Assembly (NCBI RefSeq): GCF_001507555.1
Contig: NZ_LQBO01000001.1
Span: forward strand, 1,116,001-1,180,000
DNA: 64,000 bases
Reading direction: 5' to 3'
Origin: Thiomicrospira sp. XS5
Lineage (GTDB): Bacteria > Pseudomonadota > Gammaproteobacteria > Thiomicrospirales > Thiomicrospiraceae
Within the stretch, counting starts at the first letter, position 1. Each line of letters begins with the position of its first letter. Below are positions 5,205-47,149 of this stretch, in pieces. The notes under the pieces are model-generated. The model saw only the letters and a program-made list of their open reading frames with translations. It did not search any database and had not been told where the DNA came from. Position numbers and translations under genes: made by a program.

Positions 5205-6563
5205 ATGTATTGCTCCTTCTTTGGTCTGAAGAAACTTCCCTTTAAAATTTCACCGGACCTGACTTTCTTTTACAAACAGGCCGCGCGTGAAGAAATTACG
5301 CAAGCCTTGTTGTTTTCCATTGAGCGTGGCGATGGCATTATTACCGTGACGGGCGAAGTCGGTGTGGGCAAAACCACCTTGCTGCGCTTGTTGTCGGAAA
5401 CCTTGCCGGACCATTACATTCAGGTCTATATTTCCTCTCCGAACCTGTCGGGGGAAGCGCTGCTGAAATTCATTTGTTCAGAGTTGGCCATTCCGGTCGA
5501 TCCGGCTGATGGCAAAGCGGATTTGATGAATCGTTTAAACGGTTTTTTGATTGAAGAATACCGTCAAAATCGGCGGGTAGTTATGTTGGTGGACGAGGCG
5601 CAATCCATGATGCTGGATACGCTGGAAGAAGTGCGTTTGTTGGGCAACCTGGAAACCGGAGACGACAAGCTGTTGCAAATGGTGTTGTTTGGACAGCCGG
5701 AACTGGATGTGACGTTGCAAGACCCGCGTGTTCGACCGTTTAAAGACCGCATTGCCAATCACTTTATGATTCAGTCGTTAAACAATGAAGAAGTGATGCA
5801 CTATTTAAATTACCGAATGCGAGTTGCAGGCTATATGCAGTCCGACTTGTTTTCATTGAAAATTGCGAAACGGATACGAGAGCAGACCGGTGGTTTGCCT
5901 CGCTCCATTAACCTGCTGGCCGATAAATTATTGATGGTGGCTTTTTCAAAAGGCGATGCTCATCTAAAAGTCTCACACTTCAAGGAACTCGTTACCGGCT
6001 CGCCGACTAAACACGCTCGACTTCCCTGGGTTCTGGCCGCTTCATTGGCCGTAATGGCGGTGGTTTTGGCATGGACGAAGCTGGTTCCGGGGGAGAATGA
6101 GACTCCATTGGTTGCGGCAAAAACCTCTTGGTGGCAGGCTTCTCAGCACCTGTCGGAAACCGCCGCACACCTAGGGGTCAGCACTCAACGCCTGGTTCAA
6201 TTAACCGATATGGACCGTCAGGCCCGGCATTTTTTGCGTTCTCAGGTGGCGAATAAGCCGTTAATTTTAATCAATGCCATGCCCTTGCAGCGTTTTGATG
6301 ATGTGTACTCAAGCGTCTTGAACGGGCTGGACAAAGTGAATCGAGCCAATTTATTTGCGGTCATCGACCCGAAAAGCGACCCGTCAGATGTTCAATTTCG
6401 CCTACTTTATGATCCGAGGGCGGAAGACGGTACGGCTTTGCAAAGTAAACAAACCGATTTACAAACGCTGTCGGGCGGGAGCTCACGGGTTGTGTCGGTT
6501 TCGAATGTGGAAGACATGATCGCGCGGTCGCCCAAGCCACAGCGCCTATCCGCTGGGTCCTAG
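5205..6563 (+). CDS. mshM: MshM/ExeA-like AAA ATPase with C-terminal membrane extension
   Basis: The N-terminal 260 residues are an ExeA/GspA/MshM-type ATPase. It starts MYCSFFGLKKLPFKISPD, has Walker A GEVGVGKT at 50-57 and Walker B VVMLVDEAQ near 124-132. Such ATPases help place secretins or pili in the envelope, using a peptidoglycan- or membrane-linked tail. One membrane segment (LPWVLAASLAVMAVVLAWTK) follows near residues 272-292, and then about 160 residues of unrecognised, probably periplasmic sequence; many MshM proteins are shorter. It is the first gene of the locus, 28 bp before mshL. The start is the ATG at 5205, with no strong ribosome-binding site visible. The family is clear, the exact symbol inferred from context. 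Confidence 0.82.
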   Translation: MYCSFFGLKKLPFKISPDLTFFYKQAAREEITQALLFSIERGDGIITVTGEVGVGKTTLLRLLSETLPDHYIQVYISSPNLSGEALLKFICSELAIPVDPADGKADLMNRLNGFLIEEYRQNRRVVMLVDEAQSMMLDTLEEVRLLGNLETGDDKLLQMVLFGQPELDVTLQDPRVRPFKDRIANHFMIQSLNNEEVMHYLNYRMRVAGYMQSDLFSLKIAKRIREQTGGLPRSINLLADKLLMVAFSKGDAHLKVSHFKELVTGSPTKHARLPWVLAASLAVMAVVLAWTKLVPGENETPLVAAKTSWWQASQHLSETAAHLGVSTQRLVQLTDMDRQARHFLRSQVANKPLILINAMPLQRFDDVYSSVLNGLDKVNRANLFAVIDPKSDPSDVQFRLLYDPRAEDGTALQSKQTDLQTLSGGSSRVVSVSNVEDMIARSPKPQRLSAGS

Positions 6564-6591
6564 GCAAAGTGAAAAGGTATCAAAAACAATC

Positions 6592-8343
6592 ATGAAAAAA
6601 TTAGCGTTAATTCTCCCAGGCCTGCTTTGGGTCCTGACCGGGTGCAGTACTTCAGATGATGTGAAACGGGAACCGTTGGCACCGCCGGTTTCGGATAAGT
6701 TTAATCTGGAGGGCCATCTGAAGCCGGAAGACGACTTGAATAAAACCGTGGCGAAGCCGGCGGCGATTCCCGAGTTGGTGACGGATGATCCGATTAATTT
6801 GGATCCGCGAGAGCAGAAAACCATCAAGCGCTACAGTGTGTCCGCCATTAACGTGCCGGTATCGGATTTGTTGTTCAATTTAGCGAAAAACGCCGATAAA
6901 CAACTGGATCTCTCATCCGCGGTACAGGGCCGGGTCACCATTAATGCCATCAATCAGCCGCTGGATCGTATTCTTCAACGTGTGACGGCGCAAATCGATG
7001 CGTTGTACGAGCTGCAAGGCGACACCATTGTGATTTCACCGGATAAGCCGTTTTGGAAAAGCTATGAAGTCGATTATGTCAACGTCGCCAAAAATATCAA
7101 CGACACGACGGTTATGAAAATGTCGGTCGGGAATGTGGCGCAGGGTGTGAGCTTGAATAACGGTAATCAGAGCAGTCGTTTTAAATTAGATACAAAAGCA
7201 GAAAACAACTTTTGGAAAACACTGGAAGAAAATGTTTCCGCGATTGCCATGTTAGAAGTGAAGCCGGTTAAAACCGTTTCCCATAAACGGACTTACGATG
7301 GTGACCGTCAGTCGGATCGACAAAATATGGGCGATGAATACTGGGAGGGAACTTATTTACAAGGCAGCAGCACTCAAGCGTTGGAGACGGTAACGTCGAC
7401 CACCTCGGAAAAAGTGCAAAACGTGGCGGTGAACAAAGAAGCCGGATTGTTAACCGTGTTCACCAGCGGTCGACAACATAAAGAAATCGAAGCCTATTTG
7501 GAAAACACCTTGCACCGCACCAATAAACAAGTGCTGATTGAAGCGACCGTGGTGGAAGTTGAGTTAAATGACCAGTATCAGGCCGGTGTGGATTGGAGTG
7601 CGGTGACGTCCAATTCGTCCGGTTCCAGTGCCATTACGCAAAGCATGCTGGGCAGTAACTTATCCAGCGATCCGAACTTTTCCATTAATTTGACGTCCTT
7701 GGGCACCTGGGATTTTTCGTTGGGCATTAAGTTGCTGCAGAAGTTTGGCGACACCAAAGTCTTGTCCAGCCCGAAAATCATGGCGATGAACAACCAGGCG
7801 GCGTTGTTGAAAGTGGTGAAAAATGAAGTTTACTTCACCGTCGACGTGAATCGGGAATCCGCCACGTCGGTGAGCGCGGGAGTCACGACTTACGAAACCA
7901 TGGTGCACTCGGTACCGGTCGGATTCATGATGCATGTGACCCCTTTTATCACGGACAGCGGCGAGGTTTCCCTGAATATTCGACCCACTTTGTCGCGTAT
8001 TGTCAGCTATGTGGATGACCCAAATCCAGAATTGGCGAAAGAAGACATCGTCAGTCGGGTGCCGGTGATTCAAGAACGGGAAATGGATTCGGTGTTGCGT
8101 TTGCGCGATAAGCAGACAGCAATTATTGGCGGTTTGATTCAAGATACCCACAGTAACCAGCGTGAAGGTGTGCCGGGCTTGGTCGACATTCCCTGGGTGG
8201 GCGACTTATTTTCTTATCGGGATGACACCGTTCAAAAGTCGGAGCTGATTATTTTTATCCGTCCGATCATTATTAATAACCCGGATATCGAACACGGTGA
8301 TTTGAAAGCCATGAAACCGTTACTGCAAACGACGAGCAATTAA
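6592..8343 (+). CDS. mshL: MSHA-type pilus secretin lipoprotein
   Basis: A 583-residue outer-membrane secretin that would form the exit ring for the pilus. The N-terminus MKKLALILPGLLWVLTGCS is a lipoprotein signal with the modified cysteine at C18. A secretin N-domain follows (SAINVPVSDLLFNLAKNADKQ, near 85-110). The C-terminal beta-barrel domain has the usual signatures VLIEATVVEVELNDQYQAGVDW, VLSSPKIMAMNNQAA and RDKQTAIIGGLIQDT. It sits directly between the MshM-like ATPase and mshN, and its stop is followed immediately by the mshN ATG. A copy of the decamer repeat with one end substitution (CCAGGCCTGC, 6616-6625) lies in the signal-peptide region. Confidence 0.9.
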   Translation: MKKLALILPGLLWVLTGCSTSDDVKREPLAPPVSDKFNLEGHLKPEDDLNKTVAKPAAIPELVTDDPINLDPREQKTIKRYSVSAINVPVSDLLFNLAKNADKQLDLSSAVQGRVTINAINQPLDRILQRVTAQIDALYELQGDTIVISPDKPFWKSYEVDYVNVAKNINDTTVMKMSVGNVAQGVSLNNGNQSSRFKLDTKAENNFWKTLEENVSAIAMLEVKPVKTVSHKRTYDGDRQSDRQNMGDEYWEGTYLQGSSTQALETVTSTTSEKVQNVAVNKEAGLLTVFTSGRQHKEIEAYLENTLHRTNKQVLIEATVVEVELNDQYQAGVDWSAVTSNSSGSSAITQSMLGSNLSSDPNFSINLTSLGTWDFSLGIKLLQKFGDTKVLSSPKIMAMNNQAALLKVVKNEVYFTVDVNRESATSVSAGVTTYETMVHSVPVGFMMHVTPFITDSGEVSLNIRPTLSRIVSYVDDPNPELAKEDIVSRVPVIQEREMDSVLRLRDKQTAIIGGLIQDTHSNQREGVPGLVDIPWVGDLFSYRDDTVQKSELIIFIRPIIINNPDIEHGDLKAMKPLLQTTSN

Positions 8344-9672
8344 ATGAGTGTGTTGCTTGATGCTCTGAGAAAAGCCGCGGCTGAAAAACAGGCGGCCGGA
8401 AATGATTCCCCAAAAACGGCCAGGCCTGGTGGAAACAGTGGTAAGGTTGGCGACAGTCATCTCCGTGCTCAGACAACTACGTCAGGACGACCAGAGAGTT
8501 CCCAGGCAGATCAAACGGCGGGTTCCGAGCTGGAGAGACGCGACCGGGCGTCGACAGAAGCGTCGCCATTGAAAACGGGAGAACTCGACTGGAGTTTGTC
8601 GCAAATTCCGGGCTATCAGCCCCGTTCCGTGCCGGAAGCTGCAGAGCGTAATCGGGCACAAGAAGTGCTGCAAGCCATGCAACCGGTGCAAAAAACGGCG
8701 AGGTATTCGTTCCGTTGGCTTGGCCTGGGCGCTTTGGCGATGTTTGTTCTGGCTGGGATCGGGTACTATGGCTGGGCCTATTTTCAGATGCAAACTCAAG
8801 CTGTTGCTTATGAGTTGGCGGCCTACCAAACAGTCCAACCGGTTGCGTCAACAGCGCCTAAGCCGGAATCGGCGGTGCCCACGCAAAAGTCAAAACCCGC
8901 TGAGACGACGCGAGCGACTTCTGTTTCCACTGTACCTGTATCGGTCGGGGAGGGTTCGATACCAAAACGATCGCAAGCGGCTTCGAAACAAGTCTCTCAG
9001 CCAGCTTCTGAAAAAAAACCGACAGCGCCGTCGGCTCCTTCCTCTCTATCCAAAGAACATTTAAAAATAGTGGCCGTGACCGAACCGACGGATGCCGAAA
9101 AAGGCTATCAAGCTTACCAGGCGGGGCACTTGAATCAAGCACGGCGTTTCTATAACTTGGCTTATCAACAGAATGGCGAAAACATCGCGGCTTTGTTCGG
9201 GCTTGCTGCGATAGCGGTCAAACAGGGCCAAAAGTTGGATGCTTTGCAATATTACCAGCGTATTCTCGAGATCGACCCGCAAAATCAACGGGCGAAAGAT
9301 GCCGAGTTGATGCTCGGCAGTCAGATCAAAGACGGCGCCAAAACCACGGGTACATTGGCTAAACGGGCACGTGATTTCCCAGATAATGCCGCGCTTCAAG
9401 CGGCTTTGGGGCATCAGTTGGCAAAGAAAAACGATTGGGTTGGTGCTCAGAAGCAATATTTTAAAGCCTACCAATTGGCGCCTGACCGGGGCGACTACGC
9501 TTTAAATCTGGCGGTGAGTCTCGATACGCTGGGTGAATATGCCTTGGCCAAACAGTATTACGAACGCGTCTTGCAAGGGCCGACCACTGGCTTGTCGCTG
9601 AAACGAAAAGAGCAGGTTCGCCAGCGAGTGGCGGCTTTGCAGGCCTTTTTGAATCGGGAGACCAAATCGTGA
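8344..9672 (+). CDS. mshN: MshN-like TPR protein of the MSHA pilus
   Basis: A 442-residue inner-membrane protein. A disordered, polar N-terminus precedes one membrane segment at about 123-145 (LGALAMFVLAGIGYYGWAYF). A Pro/Ala/Ser/Thr-rich linker follows, then tetratricopeptide repeats from about 255 to 430 (for example GYQAYQAGHLNQARRFYNLA and ALQYYQRILEIDPQNQRAK). This architecture matches MshN. Its ATG starts one base after the mshL stop. A CCAGGCCTGG decamer is embedded at 8420-8429, encoding part of ARPGG in the low-complexity N-terminus. The exact role of MshN in assembly is not settled. Confidence 0.82.
   Translation: MSVLLDALRKAAAEKQAAGNDSPKTARPGGNSGKVGDSHLRAQTTTSGRPESSQADQTAGSELERRDRASTEASPLKTGELDWSLSQIPGYQPRSVPEAAERNRAQEVLQAMQPVQKTARYSFRWLGLGALAMFVLAGIGYYGWAYFQMQTQAVAYELAAYQTVQPVASTAPKPESAVPTQKSKPAETTRATSVSTVPVSVGEGSIPKRSQAASKQVSQPASEKKPTAPSAPSSLSKEHLKIVAVTEPTDAEKGYQAYQAGHLNQARRFYNLAYQQNGENIAALFGLAAIAVKQGQKLDALQYYQRILEIDPQNQRAKDAELMLGSQIKDGAKTTGTLAKRARDFPDNAALQAALGHQLAKKNDWVGAQKQYFKAYQLAPDRGDYALNLAVSLDTLGEYALAKQYYERVLQGPTTGLSLKRKEQVRQRVAALQAFLNRETKS
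8420..8429. repeat. CCAGGCCTGG decamer palindrome (in mshN)
   Basis: Exact copy inside the coding sequence, read as part of ARPGG. Confidence 0.75.
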
Positions 9673-9684
9673 TGAGAGGCGGGT

Positions 9685-11367
9685 ATGGATAAAGGACGTC
9701 TTGGCGACCGTTTGGTCGAAGCCGGTTTCATTACGCCGGATCAATTACGTATTGCCCTGACCGAGCAAAGCGTGACCGGGAAAAAACTCGGTAAGGTTTT
9801 GGTCACATTGGGCTTTCTGTCCGAGCAGGATGCACGGCAAATTTTAGGGGATGTGGTTGGTTATTCTTCCATGTCGTTGCAAGACGTGGTGCCGGATTCC
9901 AAAGCGTTGGAGCAGGTGTCGGAAGATTTTGCCCGGGCGAATCTCGTCATGCCGATCAGCTTGGACGATGACCGTATGAAAGTGGCGATGGCGAGCCCTG
10001 ATGATGTTTTGCTCATGGACCATCTTAAGCGGCATATTCAAGGGGATATCCGCATCGATCCGGTATTAGTGGTCGAGAATGAGATTCAAAATGCCATTGA
10101 CCATTTTTACGGCTATGAATTATCCATCGATGGCATTTTGAAGGAACTGGAAACCGGGACACCGGAGGTTTACAGCCGGTCGGCACAAGATGAGTATTCT
10201 CAGCCGATGGTGCGCTTAGTGGACAATATTCTCACCGATGCTGTGAAAAAAGGTGCATCGGACATTCATTTTGAACCGGAAGAGTATTTCATTCGAATCC
10301 GGTATCGCATCGACGGTGTTTTGCAAGAGATCCGTCTCTTGCATAAGTCTTTTTGGTCCGGGTTGGTGGTGCGCTTGAAGGTGATGGCCAATTTGGATTT
10401 GACGGATCAACGGATGCCGCAAGACGGCAGGATGGAGCTCGTGGTGCATGGGCGGCAGATCGATTTTCGTGTGTCAACGCTACCGGGACGGCAGGGTGAA
10501 AATTTTGTGTTGCGTATTTTGGATCGCGAAAAAGGTATCGTGCCTTTGAAGGCGCTGGGACTGGATGCCGACAGTTATCAGGAACTGGAACTGATGATGT
10601 CGCGACCGAACGGGATTGTGTTGGTGACCGGGCCGACCGGTTCCGGTAAGACCACCACCCTGTATTCCATGTTGAATGAAATGAACCGGGAAGGCGTGAA
10701 CATCATGACCTTGGAAGACCCGGTGGAATACCCGATGGGAATGGTGCGTCAAACGTCTATTAATGAAGACATCGGCATGACATTTGCCACCGGAATTCGT
10801 TCCATTTTGCGGCAAGACCCGGACATTATTTTGGTGGGGGAGGTGCGTGACAGCGAGACCGCGGAAATGGCTTTTCGGGCGGCGATGACCGGGCATCAGG
10901 TCTTGACGACCTTGCACACCAATTCTGCCATTGGCGCGATTCCTCGCCTATTGGATATTGGCATTTCGCGTTCTATCTTGGCGGGAAATATGACCGGGAT
11001 TTTAGCGCAACGACTGGCAAGACGGCTGTGTGAACACTGTAAGGAAGCTTATCAGCCGGATGAATTTGAACGACGTCTGCTCGGTTTGAGCGAGTCGTCG
11101 GAGTCGGTGTTATACCGGGCTTGCGGTTGTTCGGCGTGTAATGGCATCGGTTATAAAGGACGTTTGGCCATTTTGGAAACGCTTCGAGTGACCGATGAAA
11201 TGGACGATATGATTATGGCGGGGCAATCACAGCATGCGATTTTGGAGAAAGCGTTGGAAAATGGTTTTTCGCCGTTATTGCAAAATGCTTTGAAGCGCGT
11301 TCGGGCGGGTGAAACCACATTGGATGAAATCAGTCGAATTGTGGATTTGACGGAACTGGTGTCGTGA
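9685..11367 (+). CDS. mshE: MshE, pilus assembly ATPase with c-di-GMP-binding domain
   Basis: A 560-residue GspE/PilB-type hexameric ATPase that drives pilus polymerisation at the inner membrane. The N-terminus holds two MshEN motifs in tandem: RLGDRLVEAGFITPDQL (from R5, ending at Q28) and KLGKVLVTLGFLSEQDA (from K34). MshEN motifs are known to bind cyclic di-GMP, so motor activity is probably c-di-GMP-controlled. Walker A is GPTGSGKT at 316-323, the Asp box is MTLEDPVEYPM, and Walker B lies in DPDIILVGEVRDSE. Four cysteines in CEHC and CGCSAC form the usual zinc site. The gene starts 12 bp after mshN, with a GAGGCGGG ribosome-binding site. Confidence 0.95.
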   Translation: MDKGRLGDRLVEAGFITPDQLRIALTEQSVTGKKLGKVLVTLGFLSEQDARQILGDVVGYSSMSLQDVVPDSKALEQVSEDFARANLVMPISLDDDRMKVAMASPDDVLLMDHLKRHIQGDIRIDPVLVVENEIQNAIDHFYGYELSIDGILKELETGTPEVYSRSAQDEYSQPMVRLVDNILTDAVKKGASDIHFEPEEYFIRIRYRIDGVLQEIRLLHKSFWSGLVVRLKVMANLDLTDQRMPQDGRMELVVHGRQIDFRVSTLPGRQGENFVLRILDREKGIVPLKALGLDADSYQELELMMSRPNGIVLVTGPTGSGKTTTLYSMLNEMNREGVNIMTLEDPVEYPMGMVRQTSINEDIGMTFATGIRSILRQDPDIILVGEVRDSETAEMAFRAAMTGHQVLTTLHTNSAIGAIPRLLDIGISRSILAGNMTGILAQRLARRLCEHCKEAYQPDEFERRLLGLSESSESVLYRACGCSACNGIGYKGRLAILETLRVTDEMDDMIMAGQSQHAILEKALENGFSPLLQNALKRVRAGETTLDEISRIVDLTELVS

Positions 11368-11377
11368 GGGATAGGTA

Positions 11378-12583
11378 GTGGAACTCTATCGTTATACGGG
11401 TGTGAACCGTTTTGGTAAACGAGTGCGCGGTGAAGTGCAGGCGTCGAATGAGCAAGACCTGGAACAACGTTTGCGTTCGGCTCAGATCGATCTGCTGTCG
11501 TTTAAGGTAAAGTCTCCTGGGTTGCTTGGCGGGTTCGGTCACCATAAAATTTCCCGGCGAGAAATCATCACGTTGACGACCCAGTTTAAACAGCTTTTGA
11601 AAGCCGGTGTGCCGTTGATGGAAATCATTGACGAACTGCGTAAGTCCGATGACAGTGATGCCACGCGGGAAATGCTGTCAGCTGTCTATGAATCGATGGA
11701 AGGTGGGCAAAGTTTTTCGCAAGCTTTAAAGCCTTACGAAAACCGTTTGGGAAGTGTGTACATTGCTTTGGTTGCGGTGGGAGAAAAGTCCGGCCAGATG
11801 GCGACGGTTCTGGATCGTTTGGAAGCCATGCTGAAATGGGAAGAGAGTCTGGCGGCGAAAGCGAAAAAAGTAATGGTGTATCCGTCAATTGTGGGCTTGG
11901 TGGTTCTGGCGGTGATTCTGATGATGATGTTGTTTGTGGTGCCGGAGTTGGTTTCCTTCATTCGAGAAATGGGGGGCGAGTTGAGTTTTGCCACCGAGTC
12001 ATTGATTGCGGTATCCGGTTTTATGCAACAGTATTTATTGGAGCTGGTGCTGGTGCCGATTGCATTGTGGTTGGGGGTGAAATGGTGGCGAAAACGGTCG
12101 TCGGACTTCCGAATTCAGATGGATCGACTGTTGTTTAAAACCCCTCTTGTCGGTTCGGTGCTGTATAAATTGAAAGTAGCACGTTTTGCCAGTACCTTGG
12201 CGGTCATGCACAGCGCGGGTATCCACTTCGGAGAGTCGTTGAAACTGTCCGCCACGGTTGTGGGGAATGCTTATTTACAACGCAATATTGAACGAGCCAT
12301 GGCGCTGATTGAAGAAGGTGAAACAATACATCAGGCCTTTGCATTGGCAGAGGTGTTTCCGTCCATGGCGGTACGTATGGTTAAGGTTGGGGAGCAAACC
12401 AGTAATATGGATGAGGCCTTGCGTAATGTCAGTGATTATTACGACACCGAAGCCAAAGAGACCATTGACCGGGTCGAGCCCGCGATCGAACCTTTTTTGA
12501 CCGTCGTGATGGCGCTGGTGGTTGGTTGGGTCATGTTGGCCGTCCTTGGGCCAGTATACGAAACCATTTCAAAGGTACAGTAA
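11378..12583 (+). CDS. mshG: MshG, inner-membrane platform protein (GspF/PilC family)
   Basis: A 401-residue polytopic protein with two GspF domains, the membrane platform on which the MshE motor acts. The first domain carries LTTQFKQLLKAGVPLMEIID and ALVAVGEKSGQMATVLDRL; the second carries ASTLAVMHSAGIHFGESL and MVKVGEQTSNMDEALRNVSD. Membrane spans lie near 170-190, 215-235 and 375-395. Translation starts at a GTG (11378) behind GAGGGATAGG, 10 bp after mshE. The stop overlaps the mshI start in TAATG. Confidence 0.93.
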   Translation: MELYRYTGVNRFGKRVRGEVQASNEQDLEQRLRSAQIDLLSFKVKSPGLLGGFGHHKISRREIITLTTQFKQLLKAGVPLMEIIDELRKSDDSDATREMLSAVYESMEGGQSFSQALKPYENRLGSVYIALVAVGEKSGQMATVLDRLEAMLKWEESLAAKAKKVMVYPSIVGLVVLAVILMMMLFVVPELVSFIREMGGELSFATESLIAVSGFMQQYLLELVLVPIALWLGVKWWRKRSSDFRIQMDRLLFKTPLVGSVLYKLKVARFASTLAVMHSAGIHFGESLKLSATVVGNAYLQRNIERAMALIEEGETIHQAFALAEVFPSMAVRMVKVGEQTSNMDEALRNVSDYYDTEAKETIDRVEPAIEPFLTVVMALVVGWVMLAVLGPVYETISKVQ

Positions 12584-14160
12584 TGCGGTATTGCTTGTTT
12601 TTACGAGACGCGGGAATCGAAGTCATTGATGTGGAGAGCACAAGTCGTCAGCATTTGGCTTCTGCTTCGTTAACATGGGAGGTGCCGGCCATACGCGATG
12701 TACTGGCGGCGTTGGATCCTGCCGCGCCGATATCATTGGTGTTGGATTTTTCCGATGAGTCGCTGCATTACGAATGGGTTCCTAAGTTATTCCCTTGGGA
12801 ACGTCCGGCATTGGAAAAACGTTTGAAAAGCCGGTTTGATAAAAGCGCCTTTGTTCATGCGCACTGGCTGAACGTTTATCAAAAAAATGCCGAGGGCCGG
12901 GAGGAACAGTTAATTCTGTTGGCAAGTGCTCCGCATTCCGATAAGTTGGATGCTTTCCTGGCGTTGGCTGAAGAATATCGGCTGGCATTGCGACAAGTCT
13001 ATTCGTATGCGTTTTTGGTGGAAGCCTGGTTTTTGAAGCGGATGTCTCGCCGCTTGAAATTGAAAGGCAAAGTGCTTAAGCGACCGTTTATTTTGACTTT
13101 ACAGGAAAGCGAACAGCGGTTTCGTCAATTTGTGTTCATTCAAGCGCGTTTGCGCATGAGTCGAAACATAGAGCTGGATGGCGATTCCCAGCAAGCCGAT
13201 GTTTCTCGCAGGCTCGTGGATGAGACCCGTGCCACGTTGCGTTACCTCTATAATCAGAAATTGGTGCCCTTTAATGCCGAAGTCGGGCAGGTTTACTTGG
13301 ACAATGATGGAGAGAGCGCCGCGTCGGTAATGGGCGGTTTTCGTGCCAGTTTGGTTTCGTCAAACTGGGATGAATCCAAGCTGGTGATGAAAGGGAGCTC
13401 TTTAGCGGATTTGAATCCGTCGGAATCCTTGCTTGATGAAAAAAGGATGTCGATGGCGTTGGTGGATTTCTTAAAATCGTCTCCGCCGGTACCTTTTTAC
13501 CGAAATGCCTATACCGACCAGATGGGGCGATTATGGCAATGGAATCGATTGTTGTGGCTATCTTGGGCGGCGGTTGTTTTATTGGGGAGTTATGCCTTAT
13601 TGCAAATGGCGATCGATTATTATGTGTTAACGGACAAAGCACAGCGGGTTGAGGCAAAACAACAGCAGTTTGCGCAGGATAAGCAGCGCCTGCAGGCCGC
13701 GATCAAACTTCAGTATGATGCGGAAGATATGAAGGCGACCGTTGAGTTTTTTGATCGCCTTAAGCATGTCAAGCAACATGGTTCCGTGGGGCGGGAACTG
13801 TCCATTTTGAGTGATGTCTTGAGCCGACACCCTGACATTGAGCTGACGGAAATACGCTGGAAACGGCTGCGGACGTTGGATAATGAACGGGTTTTGGTGA
13901 CTTTATCCGGTTACGTAAAGGGGGGCGGGCGTTATGCTGTGCTTTTGCAAAAAGCGGATGCTTTTAAAGAGGCGGTTCAGGAAGATGACCGGATTGATGA
14001 ATTAGCGTATGTGGATGAGCCTTTAAATCGTGATGCAACTCAGGCGTTGTCCGTGGAAGGTGGGGTGGAGCGAAAACCTCAAGCCCTGCCATTCAGTTTA
14101 ACCTATCGTTTGAAGGTTTTTGAGCCGCTAGCTTTGGTCGAATCGAAGGAGGCACCATGA
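12583..14160 (+). CDS. mshI: MshI-like pilus biogenesis protein
   Basis: A 525-residue protein. The frame is open further upstream, but the ATG overlapping the mshG stop (TAATG) gives the natural start MRYCLFLRDAGIEVID. Residues 1-310 fit the cytoplasmic, actin-like PilM-type half seen in MshI. A membrane span lies at about 322-343 (LLWLSWAAVVLLGSYALLQM), followed by a coiled coil and a PilN-like periplasmic part to the end. MshI proteins are natural PilM-PilN fusions that build the inner-membrane alignment subcomplex. Sequence recognition is weak; position supports the call. Confidence 0.72.
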   Translation: MRYCLFLRDAGIEVIDVESTSRQHLASASLTWEVPAIRDVLAALDPAAPISLVLDFSDESLHYEWVPKLFPWERPALEKRLKSRFDKSAFVHAHWLNVYQKNAEGREEQLILLASAPHSDKLDAFLALAEEYRLALRQVYSYAFLVEAWFLKRMSRRLKLKGKVLKRPFILTLQESEQRFRQFVFIQARLRMSRNIELDGDSQQADVSRRLVDETRATLRYLYNQKLVPFNAEVGQVYLDNDGESAASVMGGFRASLVSSNWDESKLVMKGSSLADLNPSESLLDEKRMSMALVDFLKSSPPVPFYRNAYTDQMGRLWQWNRLLWLSWAAVVLLGSYALLQMAIDYYVLTDKAQRVEAKQQQFAQDKQRLQAAIKLQYDAEDMKATVEFFDRLKHVKQHGSVGRELSILSDVLSRHPDIELTEIRWKRLRTLDNERVLVTLSGYVKGGGRYAVLLQKADAFKEAVQEDDRIDELAYVDEPLNRDATQALSVEGGVERKPQALPFSLTYRLKVFEPLALVESKEAP

Positions 14161-14795
14161 GGTTGGTTGATTCCGTCTGGATGCGCCGTTACTTAGCATG
14201 GCCACTGGGCGTTTTGGCGGCGACGCTGTTATTCATTGTGCTGAGCGGCTGGTTTCTGACTCAGCAAGAGGCTCGGCTGCAAAGTGGTGTTCAGCAAAAA
14301 GTGGCGCAATTGGATCGTTTGGTGCAGCAAGTGGCGTTCTTGAATCGGCAGGAACGACTTTTTCTGGCATACGGAGAGTCTTACTCAGAGATTAACCCGG
14401 AAGACTTGGTGGATCAGCAGGGCCGGGTTGCTTGGACGGATGCCTTGCTGAATATTCAAAAATCCTTGGTATTGAGCCCGTTTAAAATTCAGTTTGAACC
14501 GGAAAAGCCATTGCAGCAGAGCGAGTTGAAATACATTCCGCTGGAAAAGCCGATTTTCTTTTTTACGCGGCTGAATTTAACCGCCGGGTTGCAGTCGGAT
14601 CGGGATATCATAACGCTGTTTCAACGCATTTCAGCGGATATTACGCCGTTTTTTTTGATTGACCGTTGTGATTTGGATAAAGGCGCTCAAGCACGGACGC
14701 CGGTGTTCAATCTGGATAAAGGTGGCATTCATCTACAGTGCTCTCTGATTTTTTTCGAAGCCAAACCGCGAGCATTTAAAGGGCAGGCATTATGA
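14157..14795 (+). CDS. mshJ: MshJ/PilO-like protein
   Basis: A 212-residue bitopic protein with a short cytoplasmic head, one membrane segment at about 14-34 (LAWPLGVLAATLLFIVLSGW), a coiled coil (about 38-65) and a small periplasmic domain. This is the layout of PilO/MshJ proteins that pair with PilN/MshI. It starts with an ATGA overlap of the mshI stop and ends with an ATGA overlap of the next gene, so the three are translationally coupled. The call rests on topology and order more than on sequence motifs. Confidence 0.6.
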   Translation: MRLVDSVWMRRYLAWPLGVLAATLLFIVLSGWFLTQQEARLQSGVQQKVAQLDRLVQQVAFLNRQERLFLAYGESYSEINPEDLVDQQGRVAWTDALLNIQKSLVLSPFKIQFEPEKPLQQSELKYIPLEKPIFFFTRLNLTAGLQSDRDIITLFQRISADITPFFLIDRCDLDKGAQARTPVFNLDKGGIHLQCSLIFFEAKPRAFKGQAL

Positions 14796-15130
14796 AGTAT
14801 ACGGTGTCATTCTGTGCGCTATTGCTGACGTATGCCGGTTGGGGGCAAGCCGGTGAGCATGAATTAAAACGACTGTTTTATACGCCGGAACAACGGGTTC
14901 AAATTGAGCAGGCTCGTCAGGCCTATCTGCATCCGTCGCCCAAAGTACAGCGCTCGGCGCCCCGTTCCATTAACCGTCAAGGGGCCCCGAAACCGACGGT
15001 CTCGGCGATTATTGTCTTGCCGGATGGGCAGCGGCAAGTGCGCGTGAATGGACGTTATCAATCTTTATCGGATAATCGAGTACAATTAGACGCACGAGGA
15101 AAAGTGGCGAAGTCAAATGACGTGGAGTGA
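14792..15130 (+). CDS. mshK: MshK/PilP-like small periplasmic protein
   Basis: A 112-residue exported protein with a signal peptide (MKYTVSFCALLLTYAGWGQA), a basic Pro-rich middle, and a short beta-rich end (AIIVLPDGQRQVRVNGRY) reminiscent of PilP/MshK, which link the inner-membrane complex to the secretin. It is the last gene of the MSHA-like run and overlaps rmuC by 14 bp. No pilin-type genes follow. The identification depends mainly on context. Confidence 0.55.
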   Translation: MKYTVSFCALLLTYAGWGQAGEHELKRLFYTPEQRVQIEQARQAYLHPSPKVQRSAPRSINRQGAPKPTVSAIIVLPDGQRQVRVNGRYQSLSDNRVQLDARGKVAKSNDVE

Positions 15131-16583: not shown

Positions 16584-16967
16584 TTAGTGGGTGTTGAGCG
16601 ACTTGGCAAGCAGTTGTTTGACCGCTTCAATCATGGTCAAAGGTTGGAAGGGTTTGACCACCCAGGCCGACACATGTAATGCCTTAGCGTGCTGCTTGAT
16701 GCGGGGATCGGTTTCTGCCGTCAACATCAATATTGGCGTCTCATGGTACTCCGGTTGTTCCCGCAACCGTTCGACCAGTTCCAACCCCGTCTTGTCCGGC
16801 ATTAAATAATCGATAATGAACAAGTCATAATGGCTTTTTTGGGCATAGTTTAATGCTTCTGTTGCCGAAGTCGCTAAGTCCACCGTCCAGTCTTCCTGGG
16901 TTTTGAGGGTGATTTGGAGCATGTTGCGGATGACGTCGGCATCATCAACGGCCAGTAGGTGTGCCAT
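16584..16967 (-). CDS. Single-domain response regulator (CheY-like)
   Basis: A 127-residue stand-alone receiver domain. The phosphorylation pocket is complete: acidic pair D8-D9 (AVDDAD), phospho-acceptor D53 (FIIDYLMPD), T83 (LTAE) and K105 (VVKPF). It has no output domain, so it must act by protein contact, like CheY-type or stress-switch regulators. It is convergent with rmuC, only 6 bp apart, and divergent from rpsP across a 250-bp gap. No histidine kinase is adjacent. The chemoreceptor and CheW in this window are possible partners only by general association. Confidence 0.9.
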   Translation of the reverse strand: MAHLLAVDDADVIRNMLQITLKTQEDWTVDLATSATEALNYAQKSHYDLFIIDYLMPDKTGLELVERLREQPEYHETPILMLTAETDPRIKQHAKALHVSAWVVKPFQPLTMIEAVKQLLAKSLNTH

Positions 16968-20985: not shown

Positions 20986-21010
20986 ATCGTCAGGTTGTAA
21001 ACAGACATAA

Positions 21011-21033
21011 AAAAAGGGCGTTTCGCCCTTTTT
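21011..21033. terminator. Bidirectional terminator between dsbC and the convergent gene
   Basis: AAAAAGGGCG (21011-21020), loop TTT and CGCCCTTTTT (21024-21033) form a perfect stem with A- and T-runs on opposite sides, so it can serve both converging genes. Confidence 0.88.
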
Positions 21034-22274
21034 TATTCTTTAATATTCAGTTCCGGTGCCCGATAACTGTATGGATTTGGCCGAGAGGCCAGTTCTTGAG
21101 TGACGGTTTCCAAGTCCTGTACTTTCTTTTGAATATGATCCTGTTGGGATTTCAGTTCGGAGACTTGTTTACTCAGTTGTTTCAAGCTGGTGTCAATGTT
21201 TTTCAAGGCCCCGGTATTGGAAGGGCTGCTCTTTGATTTTGACGAGCTGGCCTTCATTTCGGATTCCAGCGTGGCTTGAATTTTTTTCAATAGCTTGCGC
21301 TGTTCGCTCACCGACCAGGAAATGCCGTTCAGTTTTTTCACTTGCGACTCGGTCAGCCCCATGGAGGTAACTTCAACCGGTGCCACGGATGATTGGCTGG
21401 TTTTATGCAAGGTCGAGGCTTGAATTTTGGCTTGAACGTCTTGAATTTTTTGCAGCAATGTTTGAATGCTGGCATATTGTTCCGCACGTTCACTGGCGTA
21501 TTGTTTCAGGTCTTTTTGGACGTCTTTCATCATGTCATCAGAAATTGCCGGCGCCGTGATGGTTGTTGCGTCAGCCTTGGGCTGAGATACCGCGAGTGCC
21601 TCTTCTGGTTTGGCGGAAGGCGCCTCAGTGGTTTCGGCCGGTGTGGCATCCTGTTTTGTGTCGGTTGGAGCTTCCGGCGGCTTCGGTTCCGTTGCGGCAC
21701 TGGCCGATTTGGTTCTCGGAATGTTCAAACGTTGAATGTCCGCGGCTAAAGCTTCAATCAGCGACGACAATTGATCGACTTTGAGATTGAGGTTTTTATT
21801 GAACAGGGTGTTTTCCGTAGTGATGATGTCAAGGACATCGTTTTTCAGGTTTTCGTGTTTTTTGCTGAGACTGTAATAAAGCCAGCCCATGACACCGACG
21901 GAAATGACGCTGACAGTCACGGAGACGGACATCATAATTGTGATGGCATTTTTTGCCGTTTTTAAATCATTGGATGCCACGCGAAGCGATTGGCGCCAGG
22001 CGACGTTCGAGTCTGACAGTTCAATGACTTGCGCTTTTTGTTCGTGGGAGATTTTAATCGCGGCTTCGGCGGCGGATTGGCTTTGCTCCGCCGCCAATTG
22101 CGCGGTTCTAGCGGCTTCCAGCGACAAGGCGGCCGCATCCAAATGATCCGCGTTCCCAGTGGCTTCCAAGGCTTTGTTTTTTTCGGAGGCTTTTTCCACT
22201 TCTTCCTGCATATCGGCCGAAGCGTTTTCCAATTGCTCCAATTCGTCTAGTAAATCGTCCGCTGTATCACTCAT
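21033..22274 (-). CDS. Unknown single-span membrane protein with long coiled coils
   Basis: A 413-residue protein I do not recognise. Residues 1-108 are polar and Ala/Glu-rich helical sequence; one membrane span lies at about 110-134 (ITIMMSVSVTVSVISVGVMGW). Residues 140-190 and 265-400 look like coiled coil (for example LKQLSKQVSELKSQQDHIQKK), separated by a Pro/Ala/Thr-rich linker at 195-260. The N-terminus carries ADDLLDELEQL (5-15), which recurs in the upstream partner. It starts 12 bp after that gene and ends in a shared terminator. A structural, scaffold or localisation role is a guess; no enzyme motif is visible. Confidence 0.7.
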   Translation of the reverse strand: MSDTADDLLDELEQLENASADMQEEVEKASEKNKALEATGNADHLDAAALSLEAARTAQLAAEQSQSAAEAAIKISHEQKAQVIELSDSNVAWRQSLRVASNDLKTAKNAITIMMSVSVTVSVISVGVMGWLYYSLSKKHENLKNDVLDIITTENTLFNKNLNLKVDQLSSLIEALAADIQRLNIPRTKSASAATEPKPPEAPTDTKQDATPAETTEAPSAKPEEALAVSQPKADATTITAPAISDDMMKDVQKDLKQYASERAEQYASIQTLLQKIQDVQAKIQASTLHKTSQSSVAPVEVTSMGLTESQVKKLNGISWSVSEQRKLLKKIQATLESEMKASSSKSKSSPSNTGALKNIDTSLKQLSKQVSELKSQQDHIQKKVQDLETVTQELASRPNPYSYRAPELNIKE

Positions 22275-22286
22275 AGTGGATTGCCT

Positions 22287-23621
22287 TTATTTTTTACCCA
22301 GCGCATTGATGCGGTTTTTCAGGGATTCATTTGTTTCTTTGAGTTCGGTGTTTTTATGGCGAATTTCCGACAGTTGTGCCAGCAACTCCTCATTTGAAAC
22401 GGCCGCATTCAATTCGGATAACTCGATTTCATAGCCCGCATTTTTGGCGGCTTCAAACGCACGTTCGGTCGCTTGGAAGGTGGCCTCAATCGCTCTTTGT
22501 GTTTTATCGGCCGATGCCTGGGCTTTTTTAGAGACTTCCAGTGCCAGTCGTGTCGCTTCGTGAGCGGTTTCGGCGACCTCTGAACCGATTTGTTTCACTT
22601 CCTCGTCAATCGCAATGGCTTCTTCCATGCTTTCGATGCTGTCCGCGGCTTGTTCAATCAAGTCGTGGTTTGCCTTTTCGTCCGAAGGCGAAGTGTCTGG
22701 CGTTTCACTTTGAGCGGGTTCCGCCGTTTCTGAAGTGTCTTCGACGACGTCTTCGGCCATGGGTTCCATGGAATCCGGGTCCGTTTCAATGGCTTCTGTT
22801 GGAGCCTCCATCGTGTCTTCATCGGAAAGAGGAGGGAGGTCCGTTTCAGAATCAACATTAATATCGTTTTCTTGTTGCGCTTCGGCGTCGTCCAAGCTTG
22901 TTTCCACACCTTCGGTCGCCGGCGCCTCTTCCATGTCTGGCAGGGCTTCGTCCGCAGTCATGGCTTCGTCTGACAATGCTTCATCCAAGACCGGAGGAAC
23001 CGTGTCTTCGGCAGACATTTCGTCGCTCTGTGATTCGGTTTCTGCAGTGGAATCGTCTTCTAAGGTGTCGGCTTCTTCCGGCAGTTCTAATGACTCAATG
23101 GCTTCATCTTGAAAGTCGTCTTCCAGTTCGGCCATCTCGTTTGCCATGGCAGCAATATCCTCATCGGAGGTTTCTTCGCCTTGCGCCTCATTCATGTCGG
23201 GCGCAGGTGCTTCCTCTGGCGGTTCGGCTGGTGCGTCTGCTGGGGTTTCTGCTTCAAGTGGGGTTTCCAGCGCGTCCGTCACATCGTCTTCTAACGTCTC
23301 AGACGTGTTTTCAACTTCGGCGAGTAATTCGTCAACGGTACTGGCTTCATCTTCGGTGAAGGGGAGTTCGCTGTCAGCATCTTCAGCCGTGTCTTCGGTG
23401 GCTTCAGAGATTTCTGGTTCGGCAGATGGTTCTGGCTCGGGAGTGTCTTCGGACAGTTCCGGTTCGACATCGGTTTCCGCCAGCTGATCGAGCGCGTCCA
23501 ATAAGTCATCGGCATTTGACTCAGAGGCCGGTGTTTCGTTGGCTTCGGTCATGGATTCTTCTCCCATCATTTTCAGCATTTCCTGAGTCGCTAAATCGTC
23601 TTTTTCCATATCCGCGGTCAT
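22287..23621 (-). CDS. Unknown, extremely acidic repetitive protein with C-terminal coiled coil
   Basis: A 444-residue soluble protein without signal or membrane segment. Residues 25-320 are dominated by Glu, Asp, Ala, Thr, Ser and Pro with hardly any basic residue, so this part is probably disordered. Residues 325-444 form Ala-rich helices ending in a coiled coil with Leu heptads (LLAQLSEIRHKNTELKETNE). ADDLLDALDQL (37-47) matches the N-terminal motif of the downstream membrane protein. AAAGG upstream supports the ATG at 23621. It heads a two-gene operon. The coding sequence contains many GAA/GAC-rich near repeats, and antisense frames look long because of this composition. Confidence 0.7.
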   Translation of the reverse strand: MTADMEKDDLATQEMLKMMGEESMTEANETPASESNADDLLDALDQLAETDVEPELSEDTPEPEPSAEPEISEATEDTAEDADSELPFTEDEASTVDELLAEVENTSETLEDDVTDALETPLEAETPADAPAEPPEEAPAPDMNEAQGEETSDEDIAAMANEMAELEDDFQDEAIESLELPEEADTLEDDSTAETESQSDEMSAEDTVPPVLDEALSDEAMTADEALPDMEEAPATEGVETSLDDAEAQQENDINVDSETDLPPLSDEDTMEAPTEAIETDPDSMEPMAEDVVEDTSETAEPAQSETPDTSPSDEKANHDLIEQAADSIESMEEAIAIDEEVKQIGSEVAETAHEATRLALEVSKKAQASADKTQRAIEATFQATERAFEAAKNAGYEIELSELNAAVSNEELLAQLSEIRHKNTELKETNESLKNRINALGKK

Positions 23622-23722: not shown

Positions 23723-24409
23723 TTATATGCCAGTTAGATAGGCGTTTAGGTTTTCTTTGTGTTCGAAGGTCAGCTTTTCGCCATGAGTTGGGTGGCAGAA
23801 TGAAAGGGCGCAGGCATGCAGTAATAGCCGTTCGGCCATGTTAAAGCTGTGAGGGTCGGCATAGAGGTTGTCGCCCAAAATGGGGTGTCCGAGCATTTTC
23901 ATGTGCAGGCGAAGTTGGTGGGAGCGGCCGGTAATCGGCGTGAGGTTCACGAGGGAGGCGTTATTGCCAAGGCTTTTGGCGTGCCATTCGGTTGCCGCGG
24001 CCTTTCCTTGCCGGAAGTCGATCATCTGTAAAGGCCGTTTTTCCCAATCGCATCGCATGGGGAGCTGAACCCGTCCTTTCGGCTGGCTGGGGTGTCCATA
24101 GCAGATAGCCTGGTAGTGTTTTTCAGTGAGACGGTCTTGGAATTGGATACTGAGATGGCGGTGGGCCGCTTTGTTTTTGGCCAGTACCATCAGACCGGAG
24201 GTGTCCATGTCAAGCCGGTGGACAATGAGTGCATCTGGGCAGTGCGTTTGTATTTGTGCCAGCAGGTTGCTTTCTGGATGAACGCTTCGACCAGGAACCG
24301 AAAGTAAACCGGACGGCTTATTAACCACCAACAATTCCTCATCTTCATAAATCAGCCAGGCCGGGTCAAACGGGATGTGAGGTATGTCGGTTCGATAAGG
24401 TGTGGTCAT
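23723..24409 (-). CDS. rluA: Dual-specificity pseudouridine synthase RluA
   Basis: A 228-residue enzyme predicted to isomerise U746 of 23S rRNA and U32 of some tRNAs. It has the RluA catalytic motif HRLDMDTSGLMV with the essential aspartate, plus VNKPSGLLSVPGR and PITGRSHQLRLHM. There is no N-terminal S4 domain, and the length is near E. coli RluA (219). These details separate it from RluC and RluD. It is followed downstream by the hairpin at 23658-23696. Confidence 0.93.
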   Translation of the reverse strand: MTTPYRTDIPHIPFDPAWLIYEDEELLVVNKPSGLLSVPGRSVHPESNLLAQIQTHCPDALIVHRLDMDTSGLMVLAKNKAAHRHLSIQFQDRLTEKHYQAICYGHPSQPKGRVQLPMRCDWEKRPLQMIDFRQGKAAATEWHAKSLGNNASLVNLTPITGRSHQLRLHMKMLGHPILGDNLYADPHSFNMAERLLLHACALSFCHPTHGEKLTFEHKENLNAYLTGI

Positions 24410-44917: not shown

Positions 44918-47149
44918 TTAAAAATCACTCCATTCATCCGACGTTTCTTCGCCATCATGTTTGTCAGACGGTTTCGGTTCCGCTGGCGCGTTTGGCTTGT
45001 GAGCCGGCGGCAAACCGGCTGGCTTGGCTTCCTTTTTTGGGGCGGGCGGCAGGTTGATTGCCTGGCCGGTGTTGAAAAATGCCATGTTGCGGTCCAGACC
45101 ATCGGCCTGTTCATTCATGCTGTCGGCAGCGGCGGCCGTTTCTTCGACGAGTGCCGCGTTTTGCTGGGTCACTTCGTCGATTTGGCTGATGGCTTTATGC
45201 ACCTGATCAATGCCTTCCATCTGCTGGTTCGAGGCTTGCGAAATCTGCTCAATCATTTGAGCGACCTCATCTATGGACTGGGTAATGCCCGATAGGACTT
45301 CGCCCGACTCCGACGCCAGTTGGGTGCCCTGGTCAATGCGAGCGACACTTTCGGTGATCAACCCGGTAATTTCTTTGGCGGCATCGGCGGATTTCTGCGC
45401 CAGTGAACGTACTTCTCCGGCCACGACGGCAAAGCCGCGTCCGTGCTCACCGGCACGGGCGGCTTCAACCGCCGCGTTGAGTGCCAACAGGTTAGTTTGG
45501 AAGGCAATGCCGTCAATCAGAGTGACAATGTCGGAGATTTTGTGGCTGGATTCTTGAATGGCATTCATGGCCTCAATGGTTTGTTTCATCACCGTCGAAC
45601 CGGTATTGGATTGCCCTTGTACTGTGTGAGCCACGTCAGAAGCTTCTTGGGCGTGTTGGGCATTGTTTCGAACACTGGAGGTCATTTCTTCCATGGTGGA
45701 AGAGGTTTCTTCAATCGCAGCGGCTTGTTCCTGAACCCGTTGGCTTAAGTCCATGGCGCCTTGCGCCACTTCCTGAGACCCTTGCGAAACGACTTGAGAC
45801 GCTTGGGCCGTTTGGTTGATGACATCGGCGAGTTTGATGACGGTGTTGTTAACCGTTTGTTTGAAATCATCCAAATGACCTTTGTATTCGCCGGTGACCG
45901 TTTGGGTCAGGTTGCCTTGCTCGATTTCTTTCAGAACGCTAATGGCTTCATTGACCGGTTGCACGATGCCATCCAGTATTTGGTTGATGCCTTGGATCAT
46001 TTGCTTCCAGTCCCCTTGAAGCTGATCGGCATTGGCGCGTTTATCCAGGTTTCCGTCGGCGACGGCCTGAATCAACATGTTGGTATCGGCGGTAATCGCT
46101 TTGAGGTTATGGCGAACCGCTTCAATGGCTTCGTTAATAAAGGCTTTTTTACCGGGAAGCTTTTCGATATCGGCGTTAAAGTCGCCTTTCCCAAAGGATT
46201 CAAACACCGCCATGGCTTTCTTTTTCACTTGAATGTGCCCGTCGACCATCTTGTTGACGCCGGCGGCCATTTTCTGGAAGTCGCCTTGGAATTGCGCTTC
46301 ATTCACGTTGACATCAATATCACCGGCATCGTGCTGTTGAGACATGTGATCCATTTCTTGTAATAACGATTGCAGGGTGCCTTGTAGATGTTTCATGGCG
46401 TTGAGCATCTGTCCGCTTTCATCGTCGGTTTTAATGTCAATTTGGGTGGATAAATTGCCGTCGGCAATGGCGTTGGCCGTGTCGATGGACTGGTGCAGTT
46501 GCCGCGCAATATTTCTGGGAATGGAATACCCCAGCCATAAGGCACCAATAAGAATCAAGCCCAGTATCACCATGGCAATGTTCTGGAACTGCTCAAGCTG
46601 TTGTGCCAGTTGTTCCCGTATCTCGACGGATTTGGTGAGAGCTGCTTCGCCGGCTTTATCCAAGTTGTCGCGTAATGCAGAAAATTTTTGTTCATCTTCT
46701 TGGCGCATAGCCTGGATTTCGCTTGGGCTCGCTTGGCCAATGGCGGCGATTAATTTATCCGACTGCTGTTTCCAAGCGTCGAAGTTGGATTGAAACTCGG
46801 CGGATTTCGCCAATACATCTTGGTAATCTTGCATGCTGGCTTGATATTTGGCATAACGATCCGCGACCTGTTGAGCATTCTCTAGGCGGGAGGCGTTTTC
46901 GGCACCGGCCTCTCCATAGCCGGCTAACAGGTTCAGTTCGGCTTCTCTTGCTTGATATAAGTCTCGGTCGGCATTAAGCGTTAGCGAAATGGCGTTAATA
47001 AATTTATCTGCTTGCAGTTGAATGGAGCGCTCCTGCATTTTGAGCATCCAGGATGAGGCGGCGAGCAAAAGGATGATGGAGATCGTCAAGGTGACGATGG
47101 GAATGGAGCTTTTGAAGCGAATACTGTTGAAAGTTTTGCTTTTGGACAT
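44918..47149 (-). CDS. Methyl-accepting chemotaxis protein
   Basis: A 743-residue membrane receptor. TM1 lies at 17-36, a helical periplasmic sensor at about 40-185, and TM2 at 190-209. A HAMP domain follows, then at least two further HAMP-like segments (for example [20 protein letters not shown]), and a standard signalling tip ([33 protein letters not shown]). The C-terminus is a flexible Pro/Ala/Lys linker ending in EWSDF, which fits the xWxxF pentapeptide that tethers CheR or CheB. The ligand is unknown. No flagellar-type promoter was recognised upstream. Confidence 0.95.

Follow-up and report, generated by a model that had tools for sequence, protein, structure and literature searches.

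Polar flagellar motors contain lineage-specific parts, the genes of which often await identification. Among the systems described so far, the H-ring and basal-disk proteins FlgP and FlgT of polar flagella are periplasmic or outer-membrane proteins, the tail of CheZ binds CheY in a manner like that of the FliM peptide, and the polar hubs PopZ and HubP/FimV combine an acidic disordered region with an oligomerising end. The available portion of PMC9126983 describes the 'EIDALL' segment of the FliM/FliY N-terminal peptide as binding phosphorylated CheY, and the available portion of PMC13023049 describes FlbB and FlgY of the E-ring as membrane-associated coiled-coil rings around the motor. Here, we describe a gene pair, A and B, from Thiomicrospira sp. 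XS5 (Gammaproteobacteria, Thiomicrospiraceae), located in a 64,000-nucleotide stretch of contig NZ_LQBO01000001.1 (positions 1,116,001 to 1,180,000; hereafter the window). A and B form a conserved two-gene unit that matched no described family in our searches. A flagellar or chemotaxis accessory role of some kind is the best supported reading of the pair, because B is a paralogue of a protein, C, encoded in a flagellar gene cluster, and we consider such a role probable.

The profile of B weakly matched C, another protein encoded in the XS5 genome (420 amino acids (aa), E = 3.1e-4), and comparison of the full-length B and C profiles with hhalign gave a probability of 97.1 and an E value of 4.8e-11. 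Against a null set of 26 families, each with at least seven members and drawn from 1077 open reading frames (ORFs) of the fetched loci, the B-C profile scores were 92.6 and 95.6, and the top scores of the 24 other families were 38.8 against B, obtained by A, and 24.9 against C. The two proteins also share their layout. B opens with DDLLDEL, continues through an Ala-rich helix into the membrane span, and then has long helices and a variable linker before it ends in the tail PYSYRAP. In C, an acidic N-terminal part precedes the membrane span, and long helices lead to the tail YEYSAP. B has the features of the C family, namely homology over the span and the following helices, a FliM-like start and a Y-x-Y tail; location in a flagellar locus is true of C and not of A-B in the window. 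C is present in 52/60 family genomes, and a contig scan with C returned 33 loci, all from Hydrogenovibrio, Thiomicrospira, Thiomicrorhabdus, Sulfurivirga, or metagenome-assembled genomes (MAGs) labelled Piscirickettsiaceae, Thiotrichales or Gammaproteobacteria.

The genes adjoining C encode two lipoproteins, one small and one of the LPP20 (FlgP-type) kind, together with an LppC-like and a small helical protein, and flgN, flgM, flgA, a CheV-type gene, flgT, an FlgE/F/G-type gene, flgH, flgI and flgK are located nearby. The order LppC-like, C, LPP20 is repeated in relatives (genes read by eye, 15 loci). Because homologues of flagellar genes surround it, C is very probably a flagellar protein, and C and the FlgP/FlgT-type proteins probably belong to the same assembly. 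B and C differ from FlgP and FlgT in spanning the membrane and in the length of the portion that is predicted to be cytoplasmic, and no sequence match to them was found. The C group lies at L114:16879-19857 and L115:1-1060 and, in its own genome, on C1 at about 1974878-1978960; several of its proteins carry aromatic ends such as YSFP, YTYP and YFFE.

The starts of many B and nearly all C resemble the CheY-binding peptides of FliM and CheZ. In 29/30 family loci FliM begins with M(D/E)DILSQDEVDALL(K/R)G and reads ILSQDEVDALL, and the CheZ C-termini of seven loci are mostly SQDxVDDLL, SQDEVDDLLGDLGI or near to it, CheZ of the XS5 genome ending in SQDEVDDLLGDLGI. A 10-residue matrix was built from 12 distinct peptides (10 from family FliM/CheZ and two from E. 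coli) and run over 656 ORFs. FliM and CheZ aside, A, B and C proteins filled the first 16 ranks, ahead of any protein from outside these families; at lower ranks they were interspersed with others. In the XS5 genome, B scored 18.5 (0/1000 shuffles as good), C 14.2 (2/1000) and A 11.4 (31/1000), as compared with 27.5-27.6 for family FliM. When only the first 40 residues were considered, a strict pattern was present in 19/29 B, 36/39 C and 1/972 other ORFs, the latter CheA-like by eye; counted by distinct ends, the values were 19/29, 35/38 and 1/962. In A, the strict pattern occurs at any position in 13/25 sequences. The likeness of B and C to FliM and CheZ is a resemblance, and binding of CheY by them is putative. 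FliM and FliY share with B and C only the look of the IDALL-type peptide; B and C are membrane-spanning, B lacks the 'LSQ' part, and no Pfam match to the FliM/SpoA switch domains was found in A, B or C. CheZ has a DDLLxxL peptide as B and C do, but at its C-terminus, whereas that of B and C is N-terminal; the CheZ profile scored 23.5 against B, compared with 92.6 for B-C, and PF04344 (CheZ) matched neither A nor B of the window (E up to 1) nor any of 28 B sequences.

At the other end, Y-x-Y falls within the last 40 residues of 27/28 B and of all C sequences in two alignments overlapping in species (15/15 and 18/18). Within the last 20 residues of 448 ORFs, it was found in 19/20 B, 1/1 C and 6/427 others. 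A common periplasmic partner would account for the tails of B, C and the small neighbours of C. As the preliminary description of this locus had proposed, B has a single membrane span, predicted once in 28/28 aligned orthologues. Lysine plus arginine (K+R) counts exceed before the span in 20/28 B orthologues, after it in 0/28 and are tied in 8/28, and for C the excess lies before the span in 12/15 and after it in none, so that hydrophobicity and positive-inside counts alone predict a cytoplasmic N-terminus for B. A single-sequence AlphaFold model of B contains helical rods only (residues 3-39, 42-136, 141-183, 246-289, 309-316, 322-344 and 354-396), with a mean predicted local distance difference test (pLDDT) of 59.2 and a predicted template modelling score of 0.25, and the peptide starts a long predicted helix. 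The model of C, made from 18 sequences, likewise contains helices only, at low confidence; its peptide segment forms helix 18-34 (pLDDT about 65), followed by a long low-confidence stretch.

The partner protein A is highly acidic, with 32% D+E and a net charge of -124. A stretch of about 300 acidic residues had been noted before, and residues 18-315 (298 aa) are indeed free of Lys and Arg; at 444 aa, the epithet 'giant' was an overstatement. Across 36 orthologues, the middle of A contains 23-46% D+E and varies in length and sequence while always remaining acidic, and judging from this composition it is probably disordered. The coiled-coil calls for the pair rest on long predicted helices together with weak matches to coiled-coil families. 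The C-terminal zipper of A reads L/I-x-x-I-x-x-x-N-x-x-L-x-x-x-N-x-x-L, with each Asn kept in 23/23 sequences; zipper Asn residues of this kind are found in parallel dimers. The acidic region of A in L079:9479-10417 and L080:8003-8845 consists of near-perfect six-residue repeats (AELDEV and ADIEDS, respectively), in which the acidic spacer has been rebuilt through repeat expansion. Common ancestry of A and B was considered and dropped, since an hhalign probability of 80.5 fell to 37.6 in the full-length test; the two retain resemblance merely as similar Ala-rich helices.

A and B are adjacent minus-strand ORFs separated by 12 bp, and both were recovered exactly as the two-gene module placed at 21033-23621 in the preliminary description. 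They evolve under purifying selection: against G014, the genome with the best B match, the nonsynonymous to synonymous rate ratio (dN/dS) of B is 0.09 and that of A 0.15; in this comparison dN is 0 over A 1-20, B 1-17 and B 399-413. The best-conserved parts are A 1-20, the C-terminal 133 residues of A, and B except for the linker around 196-300. The family sample comprised 62 genomes of Thiomicrospiraceae, the same 62 being contained in the order. B was present in 57/62 with a single-protein query and in 59/62 with a profile query, and A was matched in 51/60. A gene-neighbourhood check, suggested earlier, bore out A-B as a conserved unit that usually follows an RluA-type gene: this gene lies immediately upstream of A in 16/20 loci; of the other four, three come from a single genus (g2) and have A-B elsewhere, and in the fourth, L072, antisense ORFs obscured the RluA-A-B arrangement. 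The order is kept in seven more loci, including L091 and L092, where A gave no match in the A search and was assigned by position and a partial match. These two loci belong to G052 and G060 (L091:8326-9564 and L092:7635-8881), in which A has about 110 aa and retains LLDDI, and B has about 297 aa without the DDLL start. The B tail there is DYFYRNPQQFNP or DYIYRNPQQFNP, and an FkpA-type gene comes next.

Outside the family, a class-wide profile search matched B in 6/274 genomes and A in 12/274, two own-family genomes being included in each count. G118 was the sole genome outside the family matched by both, and the two genes are adjacent there. This pair is located at L090:1-1367, downstream of a gene that reads by eye as cca-like, in a 1.1-Mb genome of another family of the class. 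The other outside matches inspected by eye were a pseudopilin (L093) and a porin-like protein (L105) and were rejected. A wider contig scan with B as query found no relative.

The occurrence of flagellar genes was compared with that of the pair. FlhA was found in 57/60 family genomes and FliM in 55/60. The sole genome at least 90% complete without both is G053, from Thiomicrospira cyclica, which we take to be the present name of Thioalkalimicrobium cyclicum; searches of G053 for FlhA, FliM, CheZ, A, B and C all gave no match. The available portion of PMC4891895 describes Thioalkalimicrobium cyclicum ALM1 as non-motile. In G053 an FKBP gene lies 106 bp past the RluA-type gene, with A-B cleanly missing between them; G052 and G060 possess both FlhA and FliM, and there the short A and B sit between the RluA-type and FKBP genes. 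Linkage of A-B to FlhA was also considered and dropped, since the two are about 7 kb apart in G045 and about 0.9 Mb apart in G008, the extremes of the range.

Searches against described families did not place the pair. In Pfam and NCBIfam, A and B gave only weak matches, mostly to coiled-coil families and none over the curated cut-off (PHROGs and PADLOC were not covered), and matches of their orthologues were confined to single members. The PDB profile search returned nothing for the N-terminal domain of B and mostly zippers and designed helices for the C-terminal region of A (best E 0.00023). The module had been called unrecognised on the understanding that neither protein is homologous to a family of assigned function, and the designation stands after these profile searches. 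A keyword search of open-licence literature, covering few possible names, found no publication on A, B or C. The E-ring proteins FlbB and FlgY resemble A and B as membrane-associated coiled coils; no Pfam match to the globular head of FlbB or the ARM-like domains of FlgY was obtained with A or B, and the low-confidence models of B and C contain helices only. The likeness of A to PopZ, HubP and FimV lies in the acidic region and the oligomerising end, and the lineage differs; PopZ and LysM/FimV models were absent among the Pfam/NCBIfam matches of window A and B (E up to 1).

The paralogue C, the FliM/CheZ-like peptide, the Y-x-Y tail and the loss in a non-motile relative lead to a more specific reading than the scaffold, polar landmark or anchor for a large assembly considered in the preliminary description, of which a scaffold or anchor fits both the architecture and the flagellar-cluster paralogue, and a polar landmark gained no specific support. 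In the mechanism that we propose, A and B would together make up a complex that spans the inner membrane and serves the flagellar motor or its chemotactic control as an accessory, in Thiomicrospiraceae and at least one outside relative. The N-terminus of B would be cytoplasmic and its long helices and tail periplasmic, where the tail would bind a motor or envelope partner. A would dimerise via its zipper and may pair with the similar Ala-rich cytoplasmic helix of B, holding the long acidic cloud there. The DDLLDEL peptides would dock CheY, probably phosphorylated, and docked CheY could act as a local reservoir or sink, or compete with FliM near the motor. Docking of CheY is the boldest and least certain step, and the mechanism as a whole is tentative, with somewhat less than an even chance of being right. 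It seems unlikely to us that A, B and C represent a new class of CheY targets, in which a membrane-spanning protein mimics FliM with its cytoplasmic peptide and grips the motor scaffold with its periplasmic tail. In that case, proteins distinct from FliM, FliY and CheZ would buffer or deliver the chemotactic signal at the motor, or relay it to the periplasmic rings. If the mechanism is right, CheY would have membrane-bound targets besides FliM, FliY and CheZ, and three proteins of sulfur-oxidising bacteria would be new flagellar parts; if the motor link alone is true, they would provide a new accessory family for cryo-tomography.

Several observations weigh against a flagellar complex that docks CheY. 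No flagellar gene adjoins A-B in the window, and the pair lies outside any flagellar operon. The N-terminal motif is short, the strict pattern was composed after the proteins had been inspected, and two of the matrix peptides come from E. coli. Ten of the 29 B sequences miss the strict pattern, some having near-variants such as ADDLINDL; B of G052 and G060 has no N-terminal peptide despite the presence of FlhA and FliM, and C was not matched in either genome. In A the motif is weak, the protein being rich in D and L, and window A is outscored by three proteins from outside FliM, CheZ, A, B and C. The topology is based on hydrophobicity and charge only, and window B is among the charge ties (K+R 3 and 3). 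The loss of A-B in G053 is a single event in a reduced genome. The pair is present in G118 (84% complete), where the FlhA search gave no match, and A and B are unmatched in G001 (97% complete) and G039 (79% complete), which have FlhA, FliM and CheZ. In the MAGs G034 and G048, FlhA and FliM are unmatched and A is kept, with a B that is frame-broken but otherwise conserved. These broken frames (L051:1870-2981 in G034 and L061:379-1480 in G048) may be assembly errors, and a true loss of B was discounted in view of the conserved remainder of the gene.

Some of these points are accommodated by a flagellar motor scaffold without CheY binding, in which B and C would be periplasmic coiled-coil struts with an inner-membrane anchor, and the DDLL helix would bind a different cytoplasmic partner (C-ring, export gate or stator) or merely start a helix. 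The homology of B and C, the place of C beside FlgP-type and FlgT genes, the Y-x-Y tail and the T. cyclica loss suit this explanation, as do the position of the B motif at the beginning of a long predicted helix and the peptide-less B of G052 and G060. It leaves unexplained why the peptides resemble those of FliM and CheZ above nearly all other scanned ORFs, and we judge it unlikely, though the foremost of the alternatives. A general envelope module unrelated to flagella, with the T. cyclica loss due to genome reduction and C separately recruited to the flagellar cluster, would agree with the G118 pair lacking an FlhA match, with G001 having flagellar genes and no pair, and with the housekeeping nature of the tested A-B neighbours; that A-B is missing exactly where FlhA/FliM-bearing relatives keep it, and that motif and tail are common to B and C, makes this rather improbable.

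The architecture of A, a short conserved N-terminal peptide, a long acidic region and a C-terminal zipper helix, resembles the layout of PopZ and would fit a polar scaffold or landmark, in which the acidic region condenses or recruits proteins at the pole, B anchors it and flagella are one client. The G118 pair without an FlhA match is compatible with this, but A and B gave no landmark-family match, no gene context of pole biology was found, and the T. cyclica loss tracks flagella and CheZ, so that we hold a polar hub to be less probable again than an envelope module. Finally, the low-complexity middle of A and the presence of antisense ORFs might raise the suspicion of artefactual ORFs without a protein product. 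The dN/dS values, the conserved ends and the occurrence of orthologues in the majority of the 60-62 family genomes searched argue otherwise; A-B are not chance ORFs, because orthologues occur across the family, and we give this explanation practically no weight. The accessory role at the flagellum or in chemotaxis is accordingly the reading that we retain.

Coordinates of the features of the A-B locus in the window
Feature	Position	Strand	Basis
Gene A, acidic protein of 444 aa with a probably disordered middle part and a helix of leucine-zipper type at the C-terminus	22287..23621	-	ORF 23621->22287, orthologue alignments, composition, dN/dS
A residues 7-21, conserved N-terminal peptide KDDLATQEMLKMMGE	23559..23603	-	Consensus of 36 orthologues; dN 0 over 1-20 vs G014
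A residues 18-315, without Lys/Arg; sequence differs among species, acidity kept	22677..23570	-	36 orthologues
A residues 35-44, SNADDLLDAL, weak FliM/CheZ-like peptide	23490..23519	-	Matrix score 11.4, 31/1000 shuffles as good; pattern anywhere in 13/25 A
A residues 312-444, conserved helical region, closing with a zipper in which two invariant Asn are spaced by seven residues	22290..22688	-	Asn in 23/23 at both
A-B gap, 12 bp	22275..22286	.	ORF coordinates
Gene B, 413-aa membrane protein with one span, paralogous to protein C of the flagellar cluster	21033..22274	-	ORF 22274->21033, orthologues, profile comparison
B residues 3-12, DTADDLLDEL, N-terminal FliM/CheZ-like peptide	22239..22268	-	Matrix score 18.5, 0/1000 shuffles; strict pattern in 19/29 B
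B residues 110-130, membrane span; the N-terminus is predicted to lie in the cytoplasm	21885..21947	-	One span in 28/28 aligned orthologues
B residues 401-407, PYSYRAP, conserved tail at the C-terminus, predicted to lie in the periplasm	21054..21074	-	Y-x-Y in 27/28 B
Bidirectional terminator hairpin common to B and dsbC	21010..21034	.	Folding energy
RluA-type pseudouridine synthase, conserved upstream neighbour of A, not included in the proposed mechanism	23723..24409	-	Locus comparison, family search

The neighbours of A-B in the window are dsbC, the RluA-type pseudouridine synthase, a low-molecular-weight phosphatase and RNase E/G. A terminator shared by A and B had been proposed, and a strong hairpin (-16.3 kcal/mol for a 61-nt stretch, z -4.15) indeed overlaps the stop codon of B; it is bidirectional and is shared as well by the convergent dsbC. 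Elsewhere in the window, an MSHA-type pilus gene cluster was read by eye at 5205-15130, and a stand-alone response-regulator receiver gene (Response_reg) lies at 16584-16967, between genes identified by eye as rmuC and rpsP. In addition, a chemoreceptor encoded at 44918-47149 ends in EWSDF, which resembles a CheR-docking pentapeptide.

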